IMG/VR virus record: IMGVR_UViG_3300035182_002389
Coordinates: 1-64,000 of that record
Length of the DNA: 64,000 nucleotides
Direction: 5' to 3' (one strand)
DNA from: a virus
A program made the position numbers and the translations under genes. Below, piece after piece: positions 8,853-58,175 of this stretch (positions are counted from its first letter, which is position 1; every line of letters begins with the position of its first letter). The notes under the pieces were generated by a model, which saw only the letters and a program-made list of their open reading frames with translations, did no database searches and had not been told where the DNA came from.

Positions 8853-11255
8853 ATGAGCAAGGCGAAAGCGGCGGGCGGCAAGGGCAAGACGGTCGTGGTG
8901 GAGGTCACCTCGGCGAAGATCGCGGACGCGCTCTACCTCGTGAGCCACCCGCTCCCCGAGGACGCGGTGAAGGCGGCGCCTCCGAAGCCGCCTCCGACGC
9001 ACCACATCGTCGTCGTCGACTGTTCGGGCTCGATGTACGGCGAGCTGCCGAAGCTGCGTGAGCAGCTCAAGAAGAAGCTGCCGAAGATGATCGGCGAGCA
9101 GGACACGTTCTCGTGCATCTGGTTCTCGGGCAAAGGCCAGTGCGGCGTGCTGCTCGAAGGCGAGAAGATCGGCAAAGCGACCGACCTTCAGACCGTCAAC
9201 AAGGTCATCGACAAGTACCTTCAGCCGATCGGGCTCACCGGCTTCAAGGAGCCGCTGGAGCTGGCCGCGGATCTGTGCGCGAAGCTTCTGAAACGCGATG
9301 AAGAATCGCGTGGGGGGCTGCGCACCCCCCACGCCCCCGCGCCACCTGCGGTGGGGCAAATGTTGGGGGAGGGGGCCGCCCCCCTCCCCCAAACCCCCTC
9401 TGCGTTCAGCCTGCTCTTCATGAGCGACGGCTGCGACAACCAGTGGCGCAAGGACGAGATCCTCACGGCGGTCGAGAGCGTCGGTGGCAAGGTGCAGGCG
9501 GCGACCTTCGTCGAGTACGGCTACTACGCCGATCGAGCCCTGCTCGCCGAGATGGCGGCGCGCTCCAGCGGCGCGCACATCTTCGCGGCCGACTTCGACG
9601 CGTTCGTCGTCGAGCTGGAGAAGAACCTCGGCAAGCACCCTTCGGGTCAGCCGCGTATCGACGTGCGCCTCGGCGGCGACGTCATCGGGGGGTTCGCCTT
9701 CGCGCTCGACGCGGGCGACGGCAAGACGTCGGGCGACGTGCTCGCGCTCGCCGCCAACGGCGAGACGGTCTACGTGCCCGACTCGATCAGGACCATCTGC
9801 TACCTGTCGCCGACGCCCGTCGGCACGGTCATCGAGACGCGCAACGATTTCAGCGCGCACTACGCCGCGCTCGGCCTCTACGCGACGCGCATGAAGAGCG
9901 ACGTCGTGTTCGCGATTCTGAAGGACCTCGCGGACGTCGACTTCATCGACAGCTACTGCAACTGTTTTGGCAAGCAGGCCTACTCGGCGTTCACCGCGCA
10001 GGCGAACGAGGCCGCGTTCGACGCGAAGAAGCGCTTCCTCAAGGGCCGTGACCCGAACCGCCTCCCGCGCGAGGACGCGTTCACGGTCGTCGAGCTGCTC
10101 GATCTGCTGAAAGAGAGCGGGAGCCGGCTGCTGCTCGACAGCGACGCCTTCGTCTACTCGAAGATCGGTCGGGCTCGCGTCGACACCGACCCGGACGCGC
10201 TGAAGTTCGAGCGCATCGCAAAGCCCGACGGCTACGTGATCCGCGGGCTCACGTGCAACCAGGAGCGCCCGAACGTGTCGGTGCTCGTGATCCGGGAGGG
10301 CACGGTCGACCTCACGAAGAAGAACCCGCCGGAGCAAGAGCCCGGCAAGATGGCCCTGCCGTCGCCGTTCCCCACGATCCAGTACAAGAACTACGCGATC
10401 GTGGAGGGAGGCCTCGTGAACGTGCGGTTCCTTCCCGCGCGCATCAAGGGAAAAACCTTCAAGGAGCTGCTCGCAGTCTACAAGGACGAGCGCCTGAAGT
10501 TCGGCGTCTTCTCGAACCTCGACCTGACCAAGCCTCCCGTCGTCGCCGACGACGCGGACCTCGACGTCACGTTCGATCTGCTCGCGATGCCGATGATGAA
10601 CCGCAAGAGCGTGAAGGAGACCAGCGCGGTCGACTACTTCACGCAGTGCTACGCGCTCATCGCCCAGAAGGCGCGCCAGAAGGTGTTCAACGCCTACGCC
10701 GAGGAGCTGCTGCCCGAGAAGATCGGCAACGAGGGCTTCGCCTTCATGTACGGCGAAACGGTCGCGGCGTTCCTCAAGAACGTCGGCATCGACCAGAAGA
10801 ATGGCCATCGCGCGCTGCACACGACCGGCGCGGTGAAGAGCGGCGACTTCTACATGGCAAAAAAGCTCGCGGGCGCCCTGAAGGGCCTCGGCACGCCGGC
10901 GAAGGCCTCCCTTCCGACCCTCGCGGAAGCGAAGGCGGGCAAGGGCGGCGCCGGCGGCAAGCTGATGAAGCCGATCGTCGACGAGGTGGAGAAGTTCCTC
11001 GCCTCGAACGCCTACAAGAAGTCCGCGAACCCGACCGCCGTGCTCACCGCGTGGCTCGATGCGGAACGTAAGGCCGCCATCGCCGCGACGCGGGCGGGGA
11101 TGCTGTCGCTCTCGAAGCTCACGTTCAACGTCATCGTCGGCCAGGTCTGGTTCTCGGAGTTCAAAGACTTGAGCGAAACGACCATGACGCTGAAGCTCGG
11201 CGGCGTCGACATCGCCTGCAACGCGAAGCTCGAAGAGGAAAAAATCGAGCTGTGA
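8853..11255 (+). CDS. Large von Willebrand factor A domain protein, 800 aa
   Basis: The N-terminal third is a VWA domain with the metal-ion-dependent adhesion site DCSGS (56-60), T129 in GLTGFKE and D192 in MSDGCD. A family A-type element encodes residues about 153-183, inserted before the SDGCD strand. The rest is beta-rich to about 330, then helical, with a hydrophobic-poor C-terminus ending KLEEEKIEL. There is no signal peptide or membrane helix. VWA proteins often scaffold complexes with AAA ATPases or act in metal-dependent adhesion; no partner is evident here. An upstream promoter suggests that it heads its own operon. Confidence 0.85.
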   Translation: MSKAKAAGGKGKTVVVEVTSAKIADALYLVSHPLPEDAVKAAPPKPPPTHHIVVVDCSGSMYGELPKLREQLKKKLPKMIGEQDTFSCIWFSGKGQCGVLLEGEKIGKATDLQTVNKVIDKYLQPIGLTGFKEPLELAADLCAKLLKRDEESRGGLRTPHAPAPPAVGQMLGEGAAPLPQTPSAFSLLFMSDGCDNQWRKDEILTAVESVGGKVQAATFVEYGYYADRALLAEMAARSSGAHIFAADFDAFVVELEKNLGKHPSGQPRIDVRLGGDVIGGFAFALDAGDGKTSGDVLALAANGETVYVPDSIRTICYLSPTPVGTVIETRNDFSAHYAALGLYATRMKSDVVFAILKDLADVDFIDSYCNCFGKQAYSAFTAQANEAAFDAKKRFLKGRDPNRLPREDAFTVVELLDLLKESGSRLLLDSDAFVYSKIGRARVDTDPDALKFERIAKPDGYVIRGLTCNQERPNVSVLVIREGTVDLTKKNPPEQEPGKMALPSPFPTIQYKNYAIVEGGLVNVRFLPARIKGKTFKELLAVYKDERLKFGVFSNLDLTKPPVVADDADLDVTFDLLAMPMMNRKSVKETSAVDYFTQCYALIAQKARQKVFNAYAEELLPEKIGNEGFAFMYGETVAAFLKNVGIDQKNGHRALHTTGAVKSGDFYMAKKLAGALKGLGTPAKASLPTLAEAKAGKGGAGGKLMKPIVDEVEKFLASNAYKKSANPTAVLTAWLDAERKAAIAATRAGMLSLSKLTFNVIVGQVWFSEFKDLSETTMTLKLGGVDIACNAKLEEEKIEL
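9310..9400 (+). repeat. Family A-type element inside the VWA gene
   Basis: GGGGGGCTGCGCACCCCCC, CCACCTGCGGTGG and GGGGGAGGGGGCCGCCCCCCTCCCCC hairpins are arranged as in the reverse-oriented copy at 58888. The frame is preserved through the element. It adds a Gly/Ala/Pro-rich loop to the protein between two VWA elements. Confidence 0.75.
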
Positions 11256-13496: not shown

Positions 13497-13771
13497 TCGC
13501 CGTTTACAAATACGTCCTCGCCGAGACGGACGACCAGACGATCCTCATGCCCAAGGGCGCGAAGATCCTGAGCGTCGGCGCGCAGCGAGACCTCATCTGC
13601 CTCTGGGCGCTCATCAACGACGGAGAACCGATGATGGGCCATCGCTTCTACATCGTCGGCACGGGCTACCCGGCCTCGCACGTGGTCAGGTCGACGTTCC
13701 TCGGCACGGTCTCTCTGCACAACGCGGAGCTGATCTTTCAGGTCTTCCAGGACAACGCGGTGAACAAGTGA
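13493..13771 (+). CDS. DUF7352-like phage protein, 92 aa
   Basis: Starts MIAVYKYVL and continues with KGAKILSVGAQRDLICLWALI and GHRFYIVGTGYP, a pattern I associate with a small beta-rich domain of phage and plasmid proteins (DUF7352-like). Its function is not known. It overlaps both neighbours by four bases. Confidence 0.75.
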   Translation: MIAVYKYVLAETDDQTILMPKGAKILSVGAQRDLICLWALINDGEPMMGHRFYIVGTGYPASHVVRSTFLGTVSLHNAELIFQVFQDNAVNK

Positions 13772-15174
13772 CTTCTCTCAAAGAGACCGTCGTGAAGGCA
13801 GGCGCGGCGCACTACGTGCTACCGAAGACGGGCGACATGAAGGTCGAGGCGCACGCGTTCCTCTCGGAGCCGCTGTTCGAGGCCTCCGAAGAGAACGTCT
13901 GGACGCAGATCGCGACCGGCGCCTCGTTCGACACCGTCACGGGCGCGTACCTGATGCCCGATTGTCACTCCGGCTACGGCGTGCCCATCGGCTCGGTCAT
14001 CGTGACCGACAATGTCATCATCCAGGGCGGCTCGGGTTACGACATCTCGTGCGGCGTCCTCTACATGAAGGCGTCCATGAAGGCGCATCAGGTCGCGGAC
14101 CGCGTGAAGCGGCGCACGTGGATCTCGGAGATCGAGCGCCGCATCTCCATGGGCAAGGGAAGCCACCGGGCCGACATGATGCCCTCTTTCACGACGGACA
14201 AGGCGCAGGAGATCCTCCGCTATGGAGCGAAAGCGCTCGGCGTCGACGAGATGCTCTGCGAGCGGCAGTACATCCCCGTCGCGGAGGGCTACGACCTCGG
14301 CAGCATCGAGCGCGCGGCCAAGCTCGTGCAGCCGCAGCTCGGGAGCGTCGGCGGCGGCAACCATTTCATCGAGATGCAGTGCGACAAGGAGACCGGCGAG
14401 GTCTTCATCATGATCCACTGCGGCAGCCGCGGGTACGGCTGGCAGACCGCGAACCACTTCTTCCACGAGGGCGCGAAGGTGCGTGGCCTGCCCGACAACC
14501 GTCGCGAGGACTCGTGGCTCTACGCCGACGAGCCGCTCGGCAAGGCGTATTGGGCCCACCACAACAGCGCCGCGAACTTCGCCGTCGCAAACCGTCACAT
14601 CATCGTCGACGGCGTGAGCCAGGCGACGCGCGTGGTCTTCGGCGGCGAGGTCGAGGTCTACTACGAGATCAGCCACAACCTCGTGCAAGAGGAGACGCTG
14701 GCGCTCCCCGACGGCGCAACCAAGCGCGGGTTCGTGCACAGAAAAGGCGCAACGCGGGCGTTCCCCGCGGGCCACCCCGACCTCGCGGGCACGCGTTGGG
14801 CGGAGACCGGCCACCCGTGTCTCATTCCCGGCTCGATGTACGAGGGCGCGGCCATCCTGTTTCCCTTGCAGGGCGCGTACAAGACCGGCTGCTCGGTCAA
14901 CCACGGCTCGGGACGGATCCTCGGACGCAAGGAGGCCCAGCGCCAGCTTGGGAGCAAGCAGGCCGACATCAACGAGGAGATGGCCACGGTCAAGCGCACG
15001 TTCAACGGCGTGCCCATCGAGGGCATCCTCTCGAACCACCGCCAGATCCCCCTCGACGAGTGCGCTCACGTTTATAAGGATTTGGACGCTGTCCTCGACG
15101 TGCTCAAGGTTGAGGGCATCGCGCGCGTGAAGAACCGCCTCTACCCGATCGCGAATCTGAAGGGCGCGGACTGA
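13768..15174 (+). CDS. rtcB: RtcB-type RNA-splicing ligase, 468 aa
   Basis: All RtcB signatures are visible: MPDCHSGYGVPIG (63-75), DISCG (92-96, metal-binding Asp and Cys), GGGNHFIE (195-202), HCGSRG (217-222), SHN (302-304), HRKGAT (324-329) and NHGSGR (378-383) with the histidine that is guanylylated. RtcB joins 2',3'-cyclic phosphate and 5'-OH RNA ends using GTP and Mn2+. In phages it may repair tRNAs or other RNAs cut by host anticodon nucleases. GTG start overlapping the upstream stop. Confidence 0.93.
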   Translation: MTSLKETVVKAGAAHYVLPKTGDMKVEAHAFLSEPLFEASEENVWTQIATGASFDTVTGAYLMPDCHSGYGVPIGSVIVTDNVIIQGGSGYDISCGVLYMKASMKAHQVADRVKRRTWISEIERRISMGKGSHRADMMPSFTTDKAQEILRYGAKALGVDEMLCERQYIPVAEGYDLGSIERAAKLVQPQLGSVGGGNHFIEMQCDKETGEVFIMIHCGSRGYGWQTANHFFHEGAKVRGLPDNRREDSWLYADEPLGKAYWAHHNSAANFAVANRHIIVDGVSQATRVVFGGEVEVYYEISHNLVQEETLALPDGATKRGFVHRKGATRAFPAGHPDLAGTRWAETGHPCLIPGSMYEGAAILFPLQGAYKTGCSVNHGSGRILGRKEAQRQLGSKQADINEEMATVKRTFNGVPIEGILSNHRQIPLDECAHVYKDLDAVLDVLKVEGIARVKNRLYPIANLKGAD

Positions 15175-18456: not shown

Positions 18457-19578
18457 ATGAAGGGCTCCGAGTTCGTCGCCACCGTCAAGAACGTCCGAGG
18501 CCCGCAGCTCTCGCGCATGGCCTTGCAAGCCATGTTCGACGAGGAGACGCCGAACTTCCTCGACGAGCGTCGCGAGTGCTTCACCGAGGCCATCATCGAC
18601 GGCGGCTACTACCGCTGCGACTACGAGGTGATGCCGAACTACCTCGCCATCGGCACCGACGACGATTTCGTCACCTGGCCGCTGTCGATCGTCGACCTGC
18701 AAGAATACTGCGACCGCGCGCCGATCGCGTGGACGGGCGCGGGCGGCGGCACGGTCAACGAGTGGTTCATCCCGCCAAAAAAGATCGTCTTCACGACGTG
18801 GGTCTTCAGCGACTGCAAGATCGTCCCCCAGGCGTTCGGCGCCATGGCGACGATGACCTGGCCCGAGACCATCCTCGCCGAGCAGGAGCGGATCAACGGC
18901 GCGATGGAACGCAATGGGTGTCTGCTTCGCGCGTTCGTGCGCGCGAAGAAGGCCTACATCACGGCGCCGAACGTGAAGACGGAAGGCGGCCCGAACGGCA
19001 ACGGCACGCTGCACTTCACCGGCTGGTACAGCTTCGATCCCATCATCCCCGAGGAGCGTACGGTCGGCACGCTCGACGGCAAGCTCGTGTACGCGGTGCA
19101 AGCGGGCGATGAGATCGGCGGCAAGATCGGCCACGAGCCCGAATACTTCGACTACTCGCACGGCTGCGACCTCGTCTACCACGAGGTCCTGATCAACGGA
19201 GAGCGGTTCACCTTCGACGAGGTGTGCAGCCATCCAAAGCTGTGCGTGCTCGTCTCGGACCAAGGCCCCTTCAACCCGCGCTACCCGAACGTCGGCGTGA
19301 GCGTTCCGCCGGCGCGCAAGACCTCGCGGATGCCCGCAGCGGCGCAAGTGCCCGCCGGCGCAAAGCCTCCCACGTTCGTGACCAAGGGCGGCGTCGCGAC
19401 GCTCGTCACGCCCGGGACCATCGGGCCGCACGTGGCGATGGACGTTTCGCCGTCGCAGGCCGCGCCCGTCGCCCTTGCGCCGACCGGCATGAGCGGCTCG
19501 ACGAAGCTCGCGATCGTGCTCGCGGCAGGGATCACCGGCTACGCGGCCTGGTACTTCTACAAGACGAGGGCGAGGTAG
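18457..19578 (+). CDS. C-terminally membrane-anchored protein, 373 aa
   Basis: A soluble domain of about 285 residues rich in aromatic beta strands (GGYYRCDYEVMPNYLAIGTD, KIVFTTWVFSDCKI) is followed by a Pro/Ala-rich stalk and one membrane helix (LAIVLAAGITGYAAWYFY) with a KTRAR end. The topology is tail-anchored. The soluble domain is not recognised. It may be a host-envelope or virion-associated protein. Confidence 0.75.
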   Translation: MKGSEFVATVKNVRGPQLSRMALQAMFDEETPNFLDERRECFTEAIIDGGYYRCDYEVMPNYLAIGTDDDFVTWPLSIVDLQEYCDRAPIAWTGAGGGTVNEWFIPPKKIVFTTWVFSDCKIVPQAFGAMATMTWPETILAEQERINGAMERNGCLLRAFVRAKKAYITAPNVKTEGGPNGNGTLHFTGWYSFDPIIPEERTVGTLDGKLVYAVQAGDEIGGKIGHEPEYFDYSHGCDLVYHEVLINGERFTFDEVCSHPKLCVLVSDQGPFNPRYPNVGVSVPPARKTSRMPAAAQVPAGAKPPTFVTKGGVATLVTPGTIGPHVAMDVSPSQAAPVALAPTGMSGSTKLAIVLAAGITGYAAWYFYKTRAR

Positions 19579-29595: not shown

Positions 29596-29918
29596 CCTCC
29601 CGGATGCACTACGAAGCCGCCGTCGGCCGCGCCGCGATCAAGACGCAGAAGGCGAAAGACGCCCTGCGAAGCTTCCTCGTGAGGAAAGCCCTGGAGCAGC
29701 TCGACTACCGCTCGGACCCGAACTTCGCCGCGCCGCGCACGCTCAAACCCGTCGATCTCATTCGGGCGAGCACCTTCGATCTTGGGGTCATCGCCGCGAA
29801 CTTCGGACGTGGCGACTTGCACGACGCGCTGCTCGAAGCCGAGGTCGAGCTTGCGAGGGCCATCGACGCGCTGGAGAACGCCGAGAAGACCGAGACCTTC
29901 ACGGAGGAAGGGTCGTGA
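29592..29918 (+). CDS. Helical hypothetical protein, 108 aa
   Basis: Starts with a four-base overlap. Almost fully helical, with AAVGRAAIKTQKAKDALRSF and EVELARAIDALENAEK. Possibly a small coiled-coil partner protein. Confidence 0.65.
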   Translation: MTSRMHYEAAVGRAAIKTQKAKDALRSFLVRKALEQLDYRSDPNFAAPRTLKPVDLIRASTFDLGVIAANFGRGDLHDALLEAEVELARAIDALENAEKTETFTEEGS

Positions 29919-30085
29919 GCGCCGGATCGAAGTTCGCGGACGACTTTGCCATCGCGCTGCGAAGGGCGCTCGCCGCCCTCGCGGTCGGGATCGTGATGAT
30001 CGGCCTCGGCGCCTACCTCATCGGTTGGCACTTCGGGCACAAGAAGGCGTGCGAGATTCCGAGCACGTGTGGGAAAGCGCCATGA
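29915..30085 (+). CDS. Small single-pass membrane protein, 56 aa
   Basis: The GTG overlaps the previous stop and the TGA overlaps the next ATG. One hydrophobic helix (ALAALAVGIVMIGLGAYLIG) is followed by HKKACEIPSTCGK. Such proteins may be holin-like or subunits of membrane complexes. Confidence 0.65.
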   Translation: MSAGSKFADDFAIALRRALAALAVGIVMIGLGAYLIGWHFGHKKACEIPSTCGKAP

Positions 30086-32388
30086 CCATCAAGGACGACA
30101 ACTTCTACACGAACCCGATGTTCACCTCCCCCGAGGAGGTGAAGGTTGCGGACCCTCCCGCGCGAGGCGGCTTGCCACAAGTCGCCGTCGATCCGACGTC
30201 TGTGCCCGCGTCGAAGGATTTTTCGTGGTCGTCGTACAAGGGCCAGCTCGACTGGCTGCCGCGGCGGACGATCTATTTGACGAGGCACGGATCGCACGCG
30301 TACGGCACCTCGCTGCCGACGAGCGATCTGGACATCCGCGGCGTCGCGATTGCGCCGATGCACTACTACACGGGTTTCCTCGACCGCTTCGAGCAAGCGG
30401 AATCGAAGGACCCGGATCTCGTCGTCTTCGAGCTGCGCAAGTTCTTCTCGCTCGCGGCCGACGCGAACCCGAACGCGCTGGAGATCCTGTTCACCGACCC
30501 GTCCGATTACCTGCGCGTGACGCCGTTCGGCGATCGGCTCCTGTCGATTCGCAAGATGTTCCTGAGCAAGAAGGCGAAGCACACGCTCTCGGGCTACGCC
30601 ATCAGCCAGCTCAAGCGCATCAACACGCACTACCGCTGGCTGAAGAACCCTCCGAAGGCGCCTCCGACGCGTAAGGAGTTCGGACTGCCGGAGCGCACGG
30701 TCATCCCGCAAGACCAGCTCGCGGCAGCTCAGGCCGCCGTCGACAAGCAGCTCGCGGTCTGGAACTTCACGGGCCTCGACACCGTGGACCCCGCCACGCG
30801 CATTGCCCTGCAAGGTTCGATGGCGGAGCTGCTCGCCGAGATCAAGGTCTCGGCCGACCGGCTCCCCGAGGTCGCCGCGCGCGCCATCGGCTACGACGAG
30901 AACTTCATCGAGCTGCTCGATCGCGAGCGCCACTACACCGGCCGCAAGCGCGAGTGGGACAACTACCAGACGTGGAAGAAGACGCGCAACCCCGCGAGAG
31001 CCGTGCTCGAAGAGCTGCACGGGTACGACTGCTACACCGATGACACGGAGTTTCTCACAGACGGAGGCTGGAAGTATTTCGACTCGGTAACCGCCAACGA
31101 CAAGCTTGCGACGGTGTTTGTGAACTGGTCGGACGATGCCATGACTCACCGTCGAGAATTTGGCGTCGAATACCAAGCGTTCACGGAGCGATTCGACGGA
31201 ACTTTCACGGGCAACCTTTACCATTTCGAGGGCAACCATCTCGACGTGCTCGTGACGCCGAATCACCGCATGCTCATGCGCAAGCGCGAACGTGCTTCAA
31301 GAAAAACGTCGGAGTGGGAGCTTTCTGAAGCCGCTCACGTGCCGGACACGTTCGAGTTCCTCCATACGGTTGCAGCGAAGGAGAAAACGTATGGCACGTC
31401 TTCCGTTTTCGACGGGCTGCCCATCGGCGAAACGCCATACCTTCGTCTGATGGGCTGGTACTTGTCCGACGGATCTATGGCGTTTCGCCCGTCCGGTATT
31501 CCTGACGACATTCGCATCAGTCAGAAGAAAGGCGGGCGACTCTACGGATCGATGCTCAAGTTCGCCCGAAAGTACGCTGGCAAGGGCGTTCCCTGCACGC
31601 TGTACGAGTACGAGCGCGAACCGACGGCGTTCAGGCCTTACAAGATCACCGAAGCCGTGTTGTCCGTCAGGCACCTGCCTATGGCGGAACGAATGCTTCG
31701 CGATTGCGGCTGCACCGACGGGAAGCGGATTCCGAGATGGGTCTTCACCCTCTCGGAGAGGCTTATGGAGATTCTGTTCGACGCCATGGCCGCAGGCGAC
31801 GGAACCATTCGCGACACGTCTCTGAAGTCGACGATTTACTACACAAATCTTCCTGGCCTGGCCGATGACGTTCAAGAGCTTGCGTTCTTGTGCGGCTGGG
31901 AGACGTCTATTTACGGCCCCTACGAGCCGCATGGCATGTATCACGTGCATGTCCACAAACACGCGGCAAGGACGCGCACGCTGATTCGGTGTCAGAACTT
32001 GTCGAAAGTCGCGGTCGAGAACCGTCGCATCGTCTGCTTCTCCGTTCCAAACTCGACGCTCGTGGTGCGCCGCAAAGGACACGTCAGCGTGCAGGGAAAC
32101 TGCAAGCACGGCATGCACCTCGTGCGACTCATGTGGACGTGTCGCGACCTGCTTACGACGGGTGAGTACATCGTCCGCCGCCCCGACGCCGAAGTGCTGC
32201 TCACGATTCGCAACGGCGCGTGGAGCTACGACAAGCTCATCGAGTTCGCCGAGGCCGAAGACAAGACGCTCACCGAGCTTGCGAAGACGTGCACGATCTT
32301 GCCGAAGGAGCCTCCGCGAAAGCAGCTCAACGAGCTGTGCGCCGGGCTCATCGAGGAGTTCAACGTCGAGATCATGCAGGGGCGGTGA
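30082..32388 (+). CDS. YcgL-like nucleotidyltransferase containing an intein, 768 aa
   Basis: The host protein has the minimal nucleotidyltransferase motif GSHAYGTSLPTSDLDIRGV and the family helix FELRKFFSLAADANPNALEI. Removing residues 317-673 joins GYD to CKHGMHLVRLMWT, matching the conserved YDTKHAMHLVRL-type motif. The insert starts CYTDDTEFLTDGG, has LDVLVTPNH (block B), two LAGLIDADG-type motifs (GWYLSDGS, FDAMAAGDG) and ends HVSVQGN before Cys. It is therefore a full intein with a homing endonuclease. Such transferases modify nucleotides or protein targets in phages; the substrate is unknown. Confidence 0.9.
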   Translation: MTIKDDNFYTNPMFTSPEEVKVADPPARGGLPQVAVDPTSVPASKDFSWSSYKGQLDWLPRRTIYLTRHGSHAYGTSLPTSDLDIRGVAIAPMHYYTGFLDRFEQAESKDPDLVVFELRKFFSLAADANPNALEILFTDPSDYLRVTPFGDRLLSIRKMFLSKKAKHTLSGYAISQLKRINTHYRWLKNPPKAPPTRKEFGLPERTVIPQDQLAAAQAAVDKQLAVWNFTGLDTVDPATRIALQGSMAELLAEIKVSADRLPEVAARAIGYDENFIELLDRERHYTGRKREWDNYQTWKKTRNPARAVLEELHGYDCYTDDTEFLTDGGWKYFDSVTANDKLATVFVNWSDDAMTHRREFGVEYQAFTERFDGTFTGNLYHFEGNHLDVLVTPNHRMLMRKRERASRKTSEWELSEAAHVPDTFEFLHTVAAKEKTYGTSSVFDGLPIGETPYLRLMGWYLSDGSMAFRPSGIPDDIRISQKKGGRLYGSMLKFARKYAGKGVPCTLYEYEREPTAFRPYKITEAVLSVRHLPMAERMLRDCGCTDGKRIPRWVFTLSERLMEILFDAMAAGDGTIRDTSLKSTIYYTNLPGLADDVQELAFLCGWETSIYGPYEPHGMYHVHVHKHAARTRTLIRCQNLSKVAVENRRIVCFSVPNSTLVVRRKGHVSVQGNCKHGMHLVRLMWTCRDLLTTGEYIVRRPDAEVLLTIRNGAWSYDKLIEFAEAEDKTLTELAKTCTILPKEPPRKQLNELCAGLIEEFNVEIMQGR
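31030..32100 (+). mobile_element. Intein with LAGLIDADG endonuclease, 357 aa
   Basis: First residue Cys317, last residue Asn673, and the +1 extein residue is Cys. The penultimate residue is Gly rather than the usual His, which may slow splicing. The nucleotide composition is less GC-rich than the flanking extein. The insertion lies at the most conserved site of the extein, as expected for a homing intein. Confidence 0.9.
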
Positions 32389-48557: not shown

Positions 48558-48643
48558 GACGAAAAGGACGCGCCTTCGGCGCGAGCACGACCTTCGGTCG
48601 AGGACGCTCCTTCGGAGCGAGGACGCGCTTCGCGCGAGGCGAG
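48558..48643. repeat. Family D array of TTCG-loop hairpins
   Basis: Four hairpins follow each other: GCGCCTTCGGCGC, GACCTTCGGTC, GCTCCTTCGGAGC and GCGCTTCGCGC, separated by GAGGAC- or GAGCAC-type spacers. Most loops are TTCG, which gives very stable RNA hairpins. It lies just downstream of the minus gene at 48649. Confidence 0.85.
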
Positions 48644-51396: not shown

Positions 51397-51425
51397 TTGA
51401 CAACTCATGTACGTTGTGCGATCCT
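51397..51425 (+). promoter_or_regulatory. Promoter region between divergent genes
   Basis: TTGACA (51397-51402) with a weak -10 (GATCCT at 51420) precedes the + strand gene. ACTCATGTAC nearby partly resembles the ACATGTTTATG element. The gap also must hold the promoter for the minus-strand CPxC cluster. Confidence 0.5.
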
Positions 51426-51438
51426 CACGTCTGACTCC

Positions 51439-53148
51439 ATGAAGAAACCGAACGCGGGAAGCGAAAAGAACGCGCCGTTGGCGCGAGCACGCGCTTCGCG
51501 CGAGGACGCTCCTGCGGAGCGAGGACGCTCCTTTGGAGCGAGCGGCGAGAAGCAAAAGTACGTCGCGGGGCGCCCCGTGCGGGTCGGCGACAGGTTCGGC
51601 GAGCTGACCGTCACCGAGCAGATCGAAGCGCCCGACCACAAGACCTACCAAGGTCGGCACTGGCTCTGCACGTGCGACTGCGGCAACCCTGCGATTCGCA
51701 CGACCACGACGCTTCAGCAAGCGCTCGCAAAAGGGCACGTCTCTTCCTGCCGAGAGTGCTGGCTGGAGCTGCTCCGATCGCGCACGGCGGAGACGTTCGA
51801 CCAGGAACGAACCAAGACGCGCACCGCGCTCGCATCGCTGTGGGCGCAGCATCGAACGCTCTACAGCGTCGCCTACGACGCGCGCGAAGAAGAACGGATT
51901 CGAGACGCCATCGAAGAGGACGGGATCCCGATCCGGTCGGAGGAGTCGCTCTCCGAGCAGTACGCCGTCGAGCCCTCACTGCTGAACGTCGACGCTCCCT
52001 CGTCGGCGGAGACGACCACGGCCCCGGTGCAGCGCGCCGCGTACCTCTATCCCGTCGGAGGCGGCGAGCTTTGCTGGGCGTGCATCACGTGTGGCGAGAC
52101 CTTTTCGCGAGGGTTCGGGTGCACGCTCTGCATCGAGCCCGTCTGCATGGACTGCGTGAGGAGCGAGGCGCACGTCCACACCGAAGACGAAGACGGCCTG
52201 ATGCTGCATCAGATTGCGGCGGAGTTCGATCGGAGCCGCGAGCGCGTCCGGCAGATGGAGACGCAGGGTCTCACCAAGCTGCGTCACCTCCACATGGCTT
52301 CACTCGTCAGGACCCTCGGGGCGGACTACGTGAGCGTGCACGCGTTTCTTCGCGCCTTGCACCCCGAGCTTCTCGACGTCGGCGAGATGCTTGCTGTGCT
52401 CGACTGGCGCGAGCGCATGGCGCGCGAAGCGAAGGTCGCCGCGTACAGGGCCGCAGAGGAGGCGGCCGAGAGGGCCGCAGAAACGCGGAGGATCATCGAA
52501 GAGCGTCGCCAGGCCAAGCGTGAAGAAGAACAGCGTCGCCGGGCCGAGCTTGCTGCCCAACCCGAGGAAGTGAGGGCGCTTCGTATTCAGCGCAACCTCG
52601 CGCGTCGTGAGACGGAGACGACGCGGCTGGCGAACGATCTCGCAGCCTGGCACGCGAACCTCGAAGCGTTGCGTGCGAGCGAGCCCGAACGAGATCGGCG
52701 CGCGGCCGAGGCGAAGAGCGCGCTCGAACTCGAACGCATCGAGAACGAGAAGAGGCGCAGCGCCGAGGTGATGGAAGAGGCCCGTAAGACCCTCGCCACG
52801 ACCTCCGCCGTCTTCGTCCCGAGCAAGCTCAGGGTCGCCGCGCGCAAGCAAGACCTCCTCGCGATCCTCATGCTCCCCGTCGGCGAGTTCGATTTCAGCG
52901 AGGAGGTGCGAGGCGCACTCGTCGAGGCCGGCGCCGAGTACATCGGCGATCTTCTCTGCGAGCTGTCGTGCCCGCCTTCGCGATGGGTCGGACCTCTGCT
53001 CGGCGCGGAGGTGCTGTTCGCGTTGCGAGAGGTCGGCCTCAACTTCGGCGTCAACATCTACGCGCTCACGGGCAGGAAAGGCTCGGAGCTGCCGTTCGCG
53101 ACCCCGTTCGTCAAGCGGATGGGGAAGGTTTCAACCAAAAAACATTGA
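51439..53148 (+). CDS. Sigma-region-4 / alpha-CTD-like fusion regulator, 569 aa
   Basis: After an N-terminal segment containing family D sequence, a GDRFGELTV...CTCDCGN...C zinc ribbon occupies residues about 45-107. Residues about 212-240 form a second zinc site (CWACITCG, CTLCIEPVCMDC). LMLHQIAAEFDRSRERVRQM and GLTKLRHLH (254-284) match sigma-70 region 4.2. A coiled coil spans about 320-455. The end (VRGALVEAGAEYIGDLLCEL and LFALREVGLNFG) resembles the RNA polymerase alpha-CTD helix-hairpin-helix. It is likely a transcription factor that contacts -35 DNA or polymerase. Confidence 0.78.
   Translation: MKKPNAGSEKNAPLARARASREDAPAERGRSFGASGEKQKYVAGRPVRVGDRFGELTVTEQIEAPDHKTYQGRHWLCTCDCGNPAIRTTTTLQQALAKGHVSSCRECWLELLRSRTAETFDQERTKTRTALASLWAQHRTLYSVAYDAREEERIRDAIEEDGIPIRSEESLSEQYAVEPSLLNVDAPSSAETTTAPVQRAAYLYPVGGGELCWACITCGETFSRGFGCTLCIEPVCMDCVRSEAHVHTEDEDGLMLHQIAAEFDRSRERVRQMETQGLTKLRHLHMASLVRTLGADYVSVHAFLRALHPELLDVGEMLAVLDWRERMAREAKVAAYRAAEEAAERAAETRRIIEERRQAKREEEQRRRAELAAQPEEVRALRIQRNLARRETETTRLANDLAAWHANLEALRASEPERDRRAAEAKSALELERIENEKRRSAEVMEEARKTLATTSAVFVPSKLRVAARKQDLLAILMLPVGEFDFSEEVRGALVEAGAEYIGDLLCELSCPPSRWVGPLLGAEVLFALREVGLNFGVNIYALTGRKGSELPFATPFVKRMGKVSTKKH
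51460..51548. repeat. Family D hairpin array inside the regulator gene
   Basis: CGCGCCGTTGGCGCG, GCGCTTCGCGC, GCTCCTGCGGAGC and GCTCCTTTGGAGC hairpins in tandem. The coding frame is kept, adding an Arg/Ala-rich segment to the N-terminus. Loops vary more than in the copy at 48558. Confidence 0.8.
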
Positions 53149-53158
53149 CATGTTTATG
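53145..53158 (+). promoter_or_regulatory. ACATGTTTATG element with TTGACA
   Basis: TTGACATGTTTATG lies right after the regulator's stop codon and about 50 bases before the next ATG. The ACATGTTTATG core is shared with 2160 and 8798. Here the TTGACA overlaps the element, so the element rather than a -10 box is the conserved part. Confidence 0.5.
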
Positions 53159-53207: not shown

Positions 53208-53441
53208 ATGGGCGAGACGTGCAAGCTGAGGGCGTGGGGGTCGGGCGACAAGGAAGACTGCGGCTCGCCGGCGGGCTCGCACGGCTACTGCCAGAAGTGC
53301 TACCCGCTCGTGCGAGGTGGCATCCTCGCGCGCATTCGAGAGGCCGAGCGCGACCTCGAATCCGACAGGTTGGAGCTGCGCCAGCTCGAAGCGGCAGAGG
53401 CTCGCGACATCGCCAAGCGCTGCTTCGGCGGAGACATCTGA
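53208..53441 (+). CDS. Cysteine-rich helical protein, 77 aa
   Basis: Starts MGETCKLRAWGSGDKEDCG, with SHGYCQKCYP, giving a possible zinc fold. A coiled-coil helix (ARIREAERDLESDRLELRQL) forms the C-terminal half. Downstream of the shared promoter element. Function unknown. Confidence 0.68.
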   Translation: MGETCKLRAWGSGDKEDCGSPAGSHGYCQKCYPLVRGGILARIREAERDLESDRLELRQLEAAEARDIAKRCFGGDI

Positions 53442-53458: not shown

Positions 53459-53523
53459 TGGGGAACGGGAACGCTCGCTTCGCGAGCTGGCAACGGGAAC
53501 GGGAACGCTCGCTTCGCGAGCTG
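53459..53523. repeat. Partial family B element
   Basis: GGGAACGGGAACGCTCGCTTCGCGAGC occurs as two tandem units with a CGCTTCGCG-type hairpin. It fills the gap up to the next gene. Confidence 0.75.
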
Positions 53524-57399: not shown

Positions 57400-57449
57400 A
57401 ACCGCGTGTTTCATGCGGCAAAAACTGCATGAACACGTCAATGGCTTGA
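57396..57449 (+). CDS. Possible 17-residue peptide
   Basis: ATG overlapping the previous stop encodes MKPRVSCGKNCMNTSMA. It overlaps two hairpins, so it could be a leader peptide for the gene at 57534 or noncoding. Weakly supported. Confidence 0.3.
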   Translation: MKPRVSCGKNCMNTSMA

Positions 57450-57460
57450 CCCCTTATCTA
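57406..57460 (+). promoter_or_regulatory. Two adjacent hairpins before the AP2/HNH-like gene
   Basis: TTCATGC (57410) pairs with GCATGAA (57427), extended by GTG/CAC with one bulge. GTCAA-TGGC-TTGAC (57437-57450) follows directly. TTGACC and an AT-rich CTTATCTATTTTGTG come next. This may be a promoter with an operator, or an attenuator. Confidence 0.5.
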
Positions 57461-57533
57461 TTTTGTGAAAGCCTCGGTTTCGCGGAACGGGCGGACCTGG
57501 GCACGGAGCGCTTTTGGCGCGAGGGGCAAGAGC

Positions 57534-58175
57534 ATGAGCGTTCACATCGGAGACCGTTTCGGGCGCCTGCTCGTCGTCGCGAACGGTACGGAGGGGCCGA
57601 AGCGGATCGTCACGGTTCTCTGCGACTGCGGGCAGAAGCGCGAGGTCCAGGCCGGCAACCTCACGGTAGGGCACACGACCTCGTGCGGCTGCTATCGCGT
57701 CGAGCAGGTCAAGAAGGCGACCACGACGCACGGACACCGCGCGGGCGAGGACACGACGCCCGAGTACGAGGCGTGGCGAAGCACGATCGCTCGCTGCTAC
57801 GACTCCGCGTGCGAGTCCTTCCCCCACTACGGCGGCAAGGGCGGCGGCGTTTGCCAGGAGTGGCAGTCGAGCTTCGCGGCGTTCCTCGAAGATGTCGGTC
57901 CGAGGCCCAGCGAAGATCACGTCATCAGCCGTCGCCGGCGCGACGAAGACTTCACCAGGGAAAACACGTTCTGGGCGACGCGCGCCGAGGCGGCTCGCAA
58001 CAAGTCGACCACGCGCATGTATGAGGTGAACGGCGTGACCAAGTGCCTCGAAGATTGGGCGACCGAGTACGGCATCGGGAAATCAACGCTCCACTATCGG
58101 CTCAAGAAGGGGCTCTCGATGCGCGAGGCCCTCGATCTTGGGCATGGTCGGTCGGGCCGCCCGCTCCACGCGTGA
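57534..58175 (+). CDS. AP2/HNH-like homing-type DNA-binding protein, 213 aa
   Basis: ATG 57534 follows GAGGGGCAAGAGC. The N-terminus, IGDRFGRLLVVANG and LCDCGQKREVQAGNL...SCGC, is the same zinc-ribbon module as in the regulator at 51439. A central EYEAWRSTIARCYD and YGGKGGGVCQEWQ region and a C-terminal CLEDWATEYGIGKSTLHYRLK NUMOD-like HTH are typical of phage homing endonuclease-like proteins. Catalytic residues are not certain. Confidence 0.75.
   Translation: MSVHIGDRFGRLLVVANGTEGPKRIVTVLCDCGQKREVQAGNLTVGHTTSCGCYRVEQVKKATTTHGHRAGEDTTPEYEAWRSTIARCYDSACESFPHYGGKGGGVCQEWQSSFAAFLEDVGPRPSEDHVISRRRRDEDFTRENTFWATRAEAARNKSTTRMYEVNGVTKCLEDWATEYGIGKSTLHYRLKKGLSMREALDLGHGRSGRPLHA

Follow-up and report, generated by a model that had tools for sequence, protein, structure and literature searches.

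What is the function of P0001, a viral protein in which a first-pass annotation had seen zinc ribbons fused to sigma-70 region 4 and to a domain resembling the C-terminal domain of the RNA polymerase alpha subunit (alpha-CTD)? Its gene lies in the window, i.e. the whole stretch of DNA that was analyzed, which comprises the leading 64 kb of a virus record 202,518 bases long, and is, as annotated, one open frame on the plus strand (Table 1). The ATG at 51439 is the likely start, because the alternative TTG at 51397, which we considered and dropped, itself falls in the −35 box of the promoter of P0001. P0001 is a real, unusual fusion of known modules and an orphan in the databases reached: its domain order, from zinc ribbon through Cys/His finger, region 4.2 and spacer to the alpha-CTD-like domain, was matched nowhere among the data searched.

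Table 1. Features in and around the P0001 gene and the second promoter of its family, in window coordinates.
Feature	Position	Strand	Basis or remark
P0001 promoter, TTGACAACTCATGTACGTTGTGCGATCCT	51397..51425	+	five-site family; ATG 13 nt past the −10-like hexamer
P0001 fusion protein gene	51439..53148	+	open frame of 569 aa
Palindromic-repeat DNA translated in frame, EKNAPLARARASREDAPAERGRSFGASGEK	51463..51552	+	~residues 9-38; similar repeat near 48605-48626
N-terminal zinc ribbon, C77/C79/C81...C104/C107	51583..51759	+	phrog_374, 9.9e-8
ZZ/B-box-like Cys/His cluster	52072..52179	+	spacing; weak profile matches
Sigma-70 region 4.2 helix-turn-helix	52192..52287	+	residues 252-283; PF04545, 1.1e-7
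E/R/A-rich, probably helical spacer	52381..52833	+	~residues 315-465; 43% charged
Likely alpha-CTD-like domain	52876..53064	+	residues 480-542; hhalign P 6.5e-6
TTGACATGTTTATG, weaker relative of the promoter family	53145..53158	+	overlaps the P0001 stop codon; 50 bp ahead of a small gene at 53208
Second family promoter in the window, before the HNH endonuclease gene (start 57534)	57446..57474	+	five-site family

Repeat or palindromic elements that are translated in frame occur within genes of this virus (window 48605-48626 and 51463-51552; L010 156-1124), and the 'RSSAERDRERSPSASWEREREREEDRF' stretch is an in-frame repeat within a 5'-3' exonuclease gene. These elements resemble the Rickettsia palindromic elements.

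No viral RNA polymerase beta subunit was found by the Rpb2_6 signature, so the virus presumably uses the polymerase of its host. It encodes an ECF-type sigma factor of its own (record 150287-150865, minus strand, corresponding to L011 6287-6865; Sigma70_r2 4.8e-10, Sigma70_r4_2 1.1e-8). A myxobacterial host is likely for this large virus, because one of the two closest relatives found for its RtcB RNA ligase (window 13768-15174, 1.1e-84) is a 62% identical copy in an uncultured Myxococcales genome.

A VWA-type protein (window 8853-11255) matches phrog_2426 at 8e-152 and has kin in Dickeya, Klebsiella and Salmonella phages. Tracts of GGGAACGGGAACGGGA are found in 34 places on both strands throughout the record (e.g. 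window 53460-53510 and 54603), as are many GCTCGC-GCGAGC hairpins, and a nucleotidyltransferase-like ORF (window 29782-32388) is apparently interrupted by an intein (CYTDDTEFLTDGGW... ...VRRKGHVSVQGNC), which may itself have a LAGLIDADG-type insert. Many proteins encoded in L008-L013 (e.g. L010 10187-14168, L012 8041-14337) start at the N-terminus with a single membrane helix, after which comes KK (GGAAAVYAFTKKK type), and there are also Gly/Thr-rich proteins of repetitive sequence, which suggests a membrane-containing or otherwise unusual virion. Three diverged paralogues with a conserved DYSHGCD motif (41-43% identical; window 18457-19578, L011 16377-17492, L013 11672-12799) yielded no relatives in our searches. 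Neither this three-copy paralogue nor the VWA gene led to a sister virus, so that structure prediction had to do without aligned true relatives.

Residues 49-135 of P0001 match the HNH-associated zinc ribbon of phrog_374, with the pattern CxCxC...CxxC. A gene 4 kb downstream that encodes a true HNH nuclease (57465-58175) has a ribbon of the same type ahead of the nuclease, and a 43% match precedes the remainder of a GIY-YIG type protein of another virus (L004). These likenesses, together with the repeat insertion within the P0001 gene, would be expected if P0001 were a derived part of phage mobile endonucleases, i.e. a nuclease-less site-binding protein (an accessory factor, a repressor of mobile genes or a decayed element) whose ribbon came from an HNH or GIY-YIG homing endonuclease and whose region 4.2 helix acts as a generic DNA binder. 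We nevertheless consider this origin unlikely: Pfam, PHROGs and NCBIfam detect no nuclease domain in P0001, and the phrog_374 match ends at residue 135, so that the protein shares with the phrog_374 endonucleases the N-terminal ribbon and lacks their HNH nuclease; region 4.2 and an alpha-CTD-like domain are transcription modules, which are unexpected in an endonuclease accessory; and the gene has its own promoter, belonging to a family that serves DNA-metabolism genes.

The second zinc module lies at residues 212-247 and consists of C212, C215, C218, C228, C231, C236, C239, H245 and H247. Its pairs C215-C218, C228-C231 and C236-C239, together with H245/H247, are of cross-brace type and their spacing fits ZZ and B-box domains, yet the profile matches are weak and all below cut-off (Pfam zf_RING-like E 0.037, zf-B_box 6.1, CBP ZZ domain 2.1-2.4). 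Of the zinc ribbons in the first-pass annotation, one is well matched, and the other corresponds to a weakly matched Cys/His cluster. Between the DNA-reading modules it had placed a long coiled coil; what is found is a charged E/R/A-rich stretch, probably helical, in which the heptad signal barely exceeds that of shuffled sequences (P 0.03-0.08) and does not convince.

The match of P0001 to Sigma70_r4 (PF04545) clears the cut-off of 24.1 bits with 31.7, and an own-genome search recovers the region at 2.7e-9. It spans only positions 19-50 of the 50 in the model, so that the assignment to sigma-70 region 4 holds for the helix-turn-helix of region 4.2 and fails for the region as a whole. In a PDB RpoD alignment, the recognition helix of P0001, SRERVRQMETQGLTKLRH, lies opposite TRERIRQIEAKALRKLRH from E. 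coli sigma-70, with SRERVRQME in P0001 matching TRERIRQIE, and it is nearest to helices of the RpoD/RpoH type. It retains R584, E585, R586, R588 and Q589 of E. coli RpoD, which we take, in this numbering, to be the residues that read the −35 element. The equivalents of K593, R596 and R603, which activators and the alpha-CTD use in sigma region 4, are not conserved. Upstream of the match, the Cys/His finger stands in place of region 4.1, so that full region 4 is absent, and Pfam finds no region 2 (PF04542). As judged by its domains, P0001 is not a sigma factor, being without region 4.1 and without regions 1-3.

This has consequences for what the helix-turn-helix could do. In sigma factors, the helix-turn-helix of region 4 binds the −35 element, and parts in or near H1, H2 and H5 bind the beta-flap of the polymerase (T4 review, PMC2988021). 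Since P0001 has kept the former and carries a zinc finger in place of H1 and H2, it plausibly reads TTGACA but would be unable to dock in the manner of sigma. The proposal that it stabilizes host polymerase is weakened accordingly, as P0001 lacks, or has in unrecognizable form, the flap-binding parts in and near H1, H2 and H5 (PMC2988021).

For the C-terminus, we built an alpha-CTD profile from 45 distinct CTD sequences, taken from loci of two bacterial phyla. Aligned to it with hhalign, residues 480-542 cover the full domain (63 columns, probability 84.8) with a score of 33.9, compared to maxima of 20.2 in shuffled sequences (0/500 reaching the score) and 20.4 in segments of the virus's other proteins (0/665); the remaining parts of P0001 score below 10. 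A HMMER search with our own alpha-CTD model had been suggestive (6.6 bits, reached by 1/2000 and 0/5000 shuffles) and is superseded by the hhalign result. Pfam reports no alpha-CTD in the P0001 C-terminus, so that the resemblance noted in the first-pass annotation stands by profile comparison with clean nulls and finds no counterpart in Pfam. In structure prediction, AlphaFold on the single sequence was uninformative (pLDDT 42), and AF2 guided by an alignment of remote alpha-CTDs reached pLDDT 72 with alpha-CTDs as top PDB matches, which is compatible with such a domain, albeit at Foldseek E > 0.1 and with a bias from that alignment.

Could the resemblance be a convergence of short helical domains, through a generic HhH/SAM-like fold or by chance, leaving P0001 as simply a zinc-finger and helix-turn-helix DNA-binding protein? 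The negative results with Pfam and in a search of the virus's own genome with PF03118, an identity to RpoA CTDs of at most 32%, and the loss of functional alpha-CTD residues described below would all be compatible with this. We regard it as rather improbable, given an alignment that spans the entire domain and whose score of 33.9 compares with a null maximum of about 20 across 1165 controls, and we consider an alpha-CTD-like domain at residues 480-542 likely.

The DNA-binding determinant of the RNAP alpha-CTD is, we assume, formed by R265, N268, G296, K298, S299 and E302. At these positions P0001 has E489, G492, G518, L520, L521 and E524, and only two of the six are kept. Binding of UP-element DNA by this tail is therefore unlikely, and the suggestion that the alpha-CTD of P0001 holds DNA does not agree with the replacement of the contacts R265, N268, K298 and S299 by E, G, L and L. 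The acidic positions D259/E261, which face sigma in RNA polymerase, are retained as E483/D485.

Which promoters might P0001 act on? Upstream of its gene lies one of five near-identical sites with the consensus TTGACA-N4-ATGTACgTTGTG-n-GAnnnT, the others being at window 57446 and at record 66993, 67432 and 76095. In leave-one-out searches each of the five was top-scoring in 202 kb on both strands (17.1-35.0 bits, with at most 13.8 elsewhere), and a matrix made from three TTGACA sites that have a longer element in common picked up another two, scoring 28.1 and 22.6 bits, whereas 20 simulated genomes gave no more than 17.7. TTGACA itself occurs 16 times in 202 kb; five copies are in the window, four of them on the plus strand, and two flank P0001. 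In effect, the family combines a −35 box with, at a distance of 17 bp, a −10 hexamer that is poor (such as GATCCT, GAGTCT or GACTAT) and comes with an extended TGn. The genes that follow are P0001, the HNH endonuclease, a small gene, a UvrD-like helicase and an SMC/RecF-like ATPase. At several of these promoters the start codon is only 9-17 nt past the −10, a sign that their mRNAs may be leaderless.

The first-pass annotation had instead looked, tentatively, to ACATGTTTATG as a mark of the virus's promoters, one copy of it directly following the P0001 gene. That copy is indeed present (53148-53158), as one of three exact copies in 202 kb, but these lie at differing positions relative to TTGACA. 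We rejected ACATGTTTATG as a promoter motif; the solid family is the one defined above, whose five members include the promoter of P0001 itself.

The same annotation had suggested that P0001 might hold −35 boxes and stabilize host polymerase at viral promoters. Spelled out, this model would be a promoter-bridging co-activator, with region 4.2 on −35 boxes and the alpha-CTD on UP-like DNA, recruiting or stabilizing host polymerase. Both types of domain are found in P0001, the sigma-facing acidic residues are kept, and strong −35 boxes with hexamers as poor as those listed could need help. However, a zinc finger replaces the flap-binding region 4.1, the residues that would grip UP-like DNA have changed, ACATGTTTATG is not the common motif, and an extended TGn accompanies the −10-like hexamers, so that host sigma could suffice. 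We find such co-activation possible, although quite unlikely; a DNA-binding protein that competes or autoregulates is the likelier reading. Turned against the host, P0001 might occupy the TTGACA of housekeeping promoters and shut off host transcription, or act as a decoy of host sigma. The proximity of its helix to the RpoD/RpoH type points in this direction, as does the fact that the virus's ECF-type sigma factor reads other boxes, yet the virus's own family of TTGACA genes would suffer too, and we judge such a takeover very unlikely.

The reading that we favor, tentatively and with a little less than even confidence, is that P0001 would be a viral, sequence-specific DNA-binding regulator of transcription from TTGACA promoters, its own included, which competes with host sigma or modulates it. 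Assembled from shuffled modules, it would bind TTGACA-type −35 boxes through the region 4.2 helix, as suggested by the preserved series arginine-glutamate-arginine...arginine-glutamine that reads the −35 box in sigma-70. Additional DNA affinity or dimerization may come from both zinc modules and from the helical spacer, and the alpha-CTD-like domain may serve as a protein contact, to host sigma region 4 or RNAP, rather than as a binder of UP elements. Without the part of region 4 that binds the flap, P0001 would act as a competitor or modulator of host sigma at these promoters, not as a replacement of sigma in the holoenzyme. Acting on its own promoter as well, it could autoregulate and shut off early-type genes.

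We infer the binding of P0001, the direction of its effect and its partners from sequence features. Its link to the promoter family is circumstantial: the TTGACA sites are explicable simply as promoters of host sigma-70, and our searches gave no homologues in which to compare the recognition helix or the connection between promoters and protein. Two further points speak against the favored reading, namely the loss of the K593, R596 and R603 equivalents and the occurrence of helix-turn-helices like that of region 4.2 in proteins that have no role in transcription initiation. A related but improbable variant would make P0001 a stand-alone viral adaptor, in which modified copies of sigma 4.2 and of the alpha-CTD on one flexible chain, held by zinc modules at viral TTGACA promoters, recruit host polymerase or lock it out without being a sigma factor. 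If the favored reading is true, the virus would have made a regulator from both DNA-reading modules of bacterial RNA polymerase, but without what makes a sigma factor. Five near-identical promoters form a defined set on which the proposal is directly testable.

Relatives of the whole protein were found neither in IMG/VR nor in a GTDB scan, searches that mostly require exact 8-residue peptides and may miss distant relatives. In scans mostly of the same kind, 189 genomes of one bacterial phylum matched P0001 in region 4.2 only, and INPHARED matched it in the ribbon or region 4.2 only.

With sigma-70 region 4 (PF04545) of the RpoD/RpoH type, P0001 shares the recognition helix, above the Pfam cut-off, and has only the second half of the region. 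With the RNAP alpha-CTD (PF03118) it has in common YIGDL, the hairpin G, GLxxG and the acidic positions of the 261 determinant, but its domain remains below Pfam thresholds, has replaced the DNA-contact residues and is not carried on an alpha subunit.

The first-pass annotation knew of no standard protein that has both modules. The combination does exist, as a bacterial ORF of 1324 aa (L082, 2235-6206) passes the curated cut-offs for RNA_pol_A_CTD (5.3e-10) as well as for Sigma70_r4 (6.1e-10), in a stretch that also matches the BREX PglW model NF033442. A second large bacterial protein that combines alpha-CTD/HhH domains with sigma region 4 (L083, 801 aa) has the alpha-CTD above cut-off and region 4 below it (22.6 vs 24.1 bits), and a further protein that is not an RpoA (L081) joins NERD, kinase and alpha-CTD domains. 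L082 and L083, which with BREX PglW are among the closest known systems, resemble P0001 in having an alpha-CTD and sigma region 4 in one chain, the latter sub-threshold in L083, but differ from it in that region 4 is complete, the alpha-CTD lies upstream of it, zinc ribbons are lacking and the proteins are far larger.

A different likeness is offered by Cys-rich proteins with region 4.2 only, which are present in 35 of the 58 genomes sampled from one phylum, likely related to that of the host. Their representative L019 (143 aa, CPYVSCKYHLYLDV) has a Cys-rich part followed by a helix-turn-helix that covers Pfam positions 20-50 of 50, and the family (L019, L084, L085) has no Pfam or NCBIfam name beyond the region 4 domain. 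As in P0001, a cysteine-rich module directly precedes a helix-turn-helix of region 4.2 only; in contrast to P0001, the cysteine module is another one, and neither an HNH ribbon nor a spacer nor a tail like the alpha-CTD is present. P0001 thereby points to a widespread and apparently undescribed bacterial class of DNA-binding proteins with region 4.2 only. The analogy to gp33 is purely functional, namely that of viral proteins which step into the −35/region 4 place on host polymerase. In sequence gp33 does not resemble sigma, and what it binds is the flap, whereas P0001 corresponds to the DNA-reading half without the flap-binding half.
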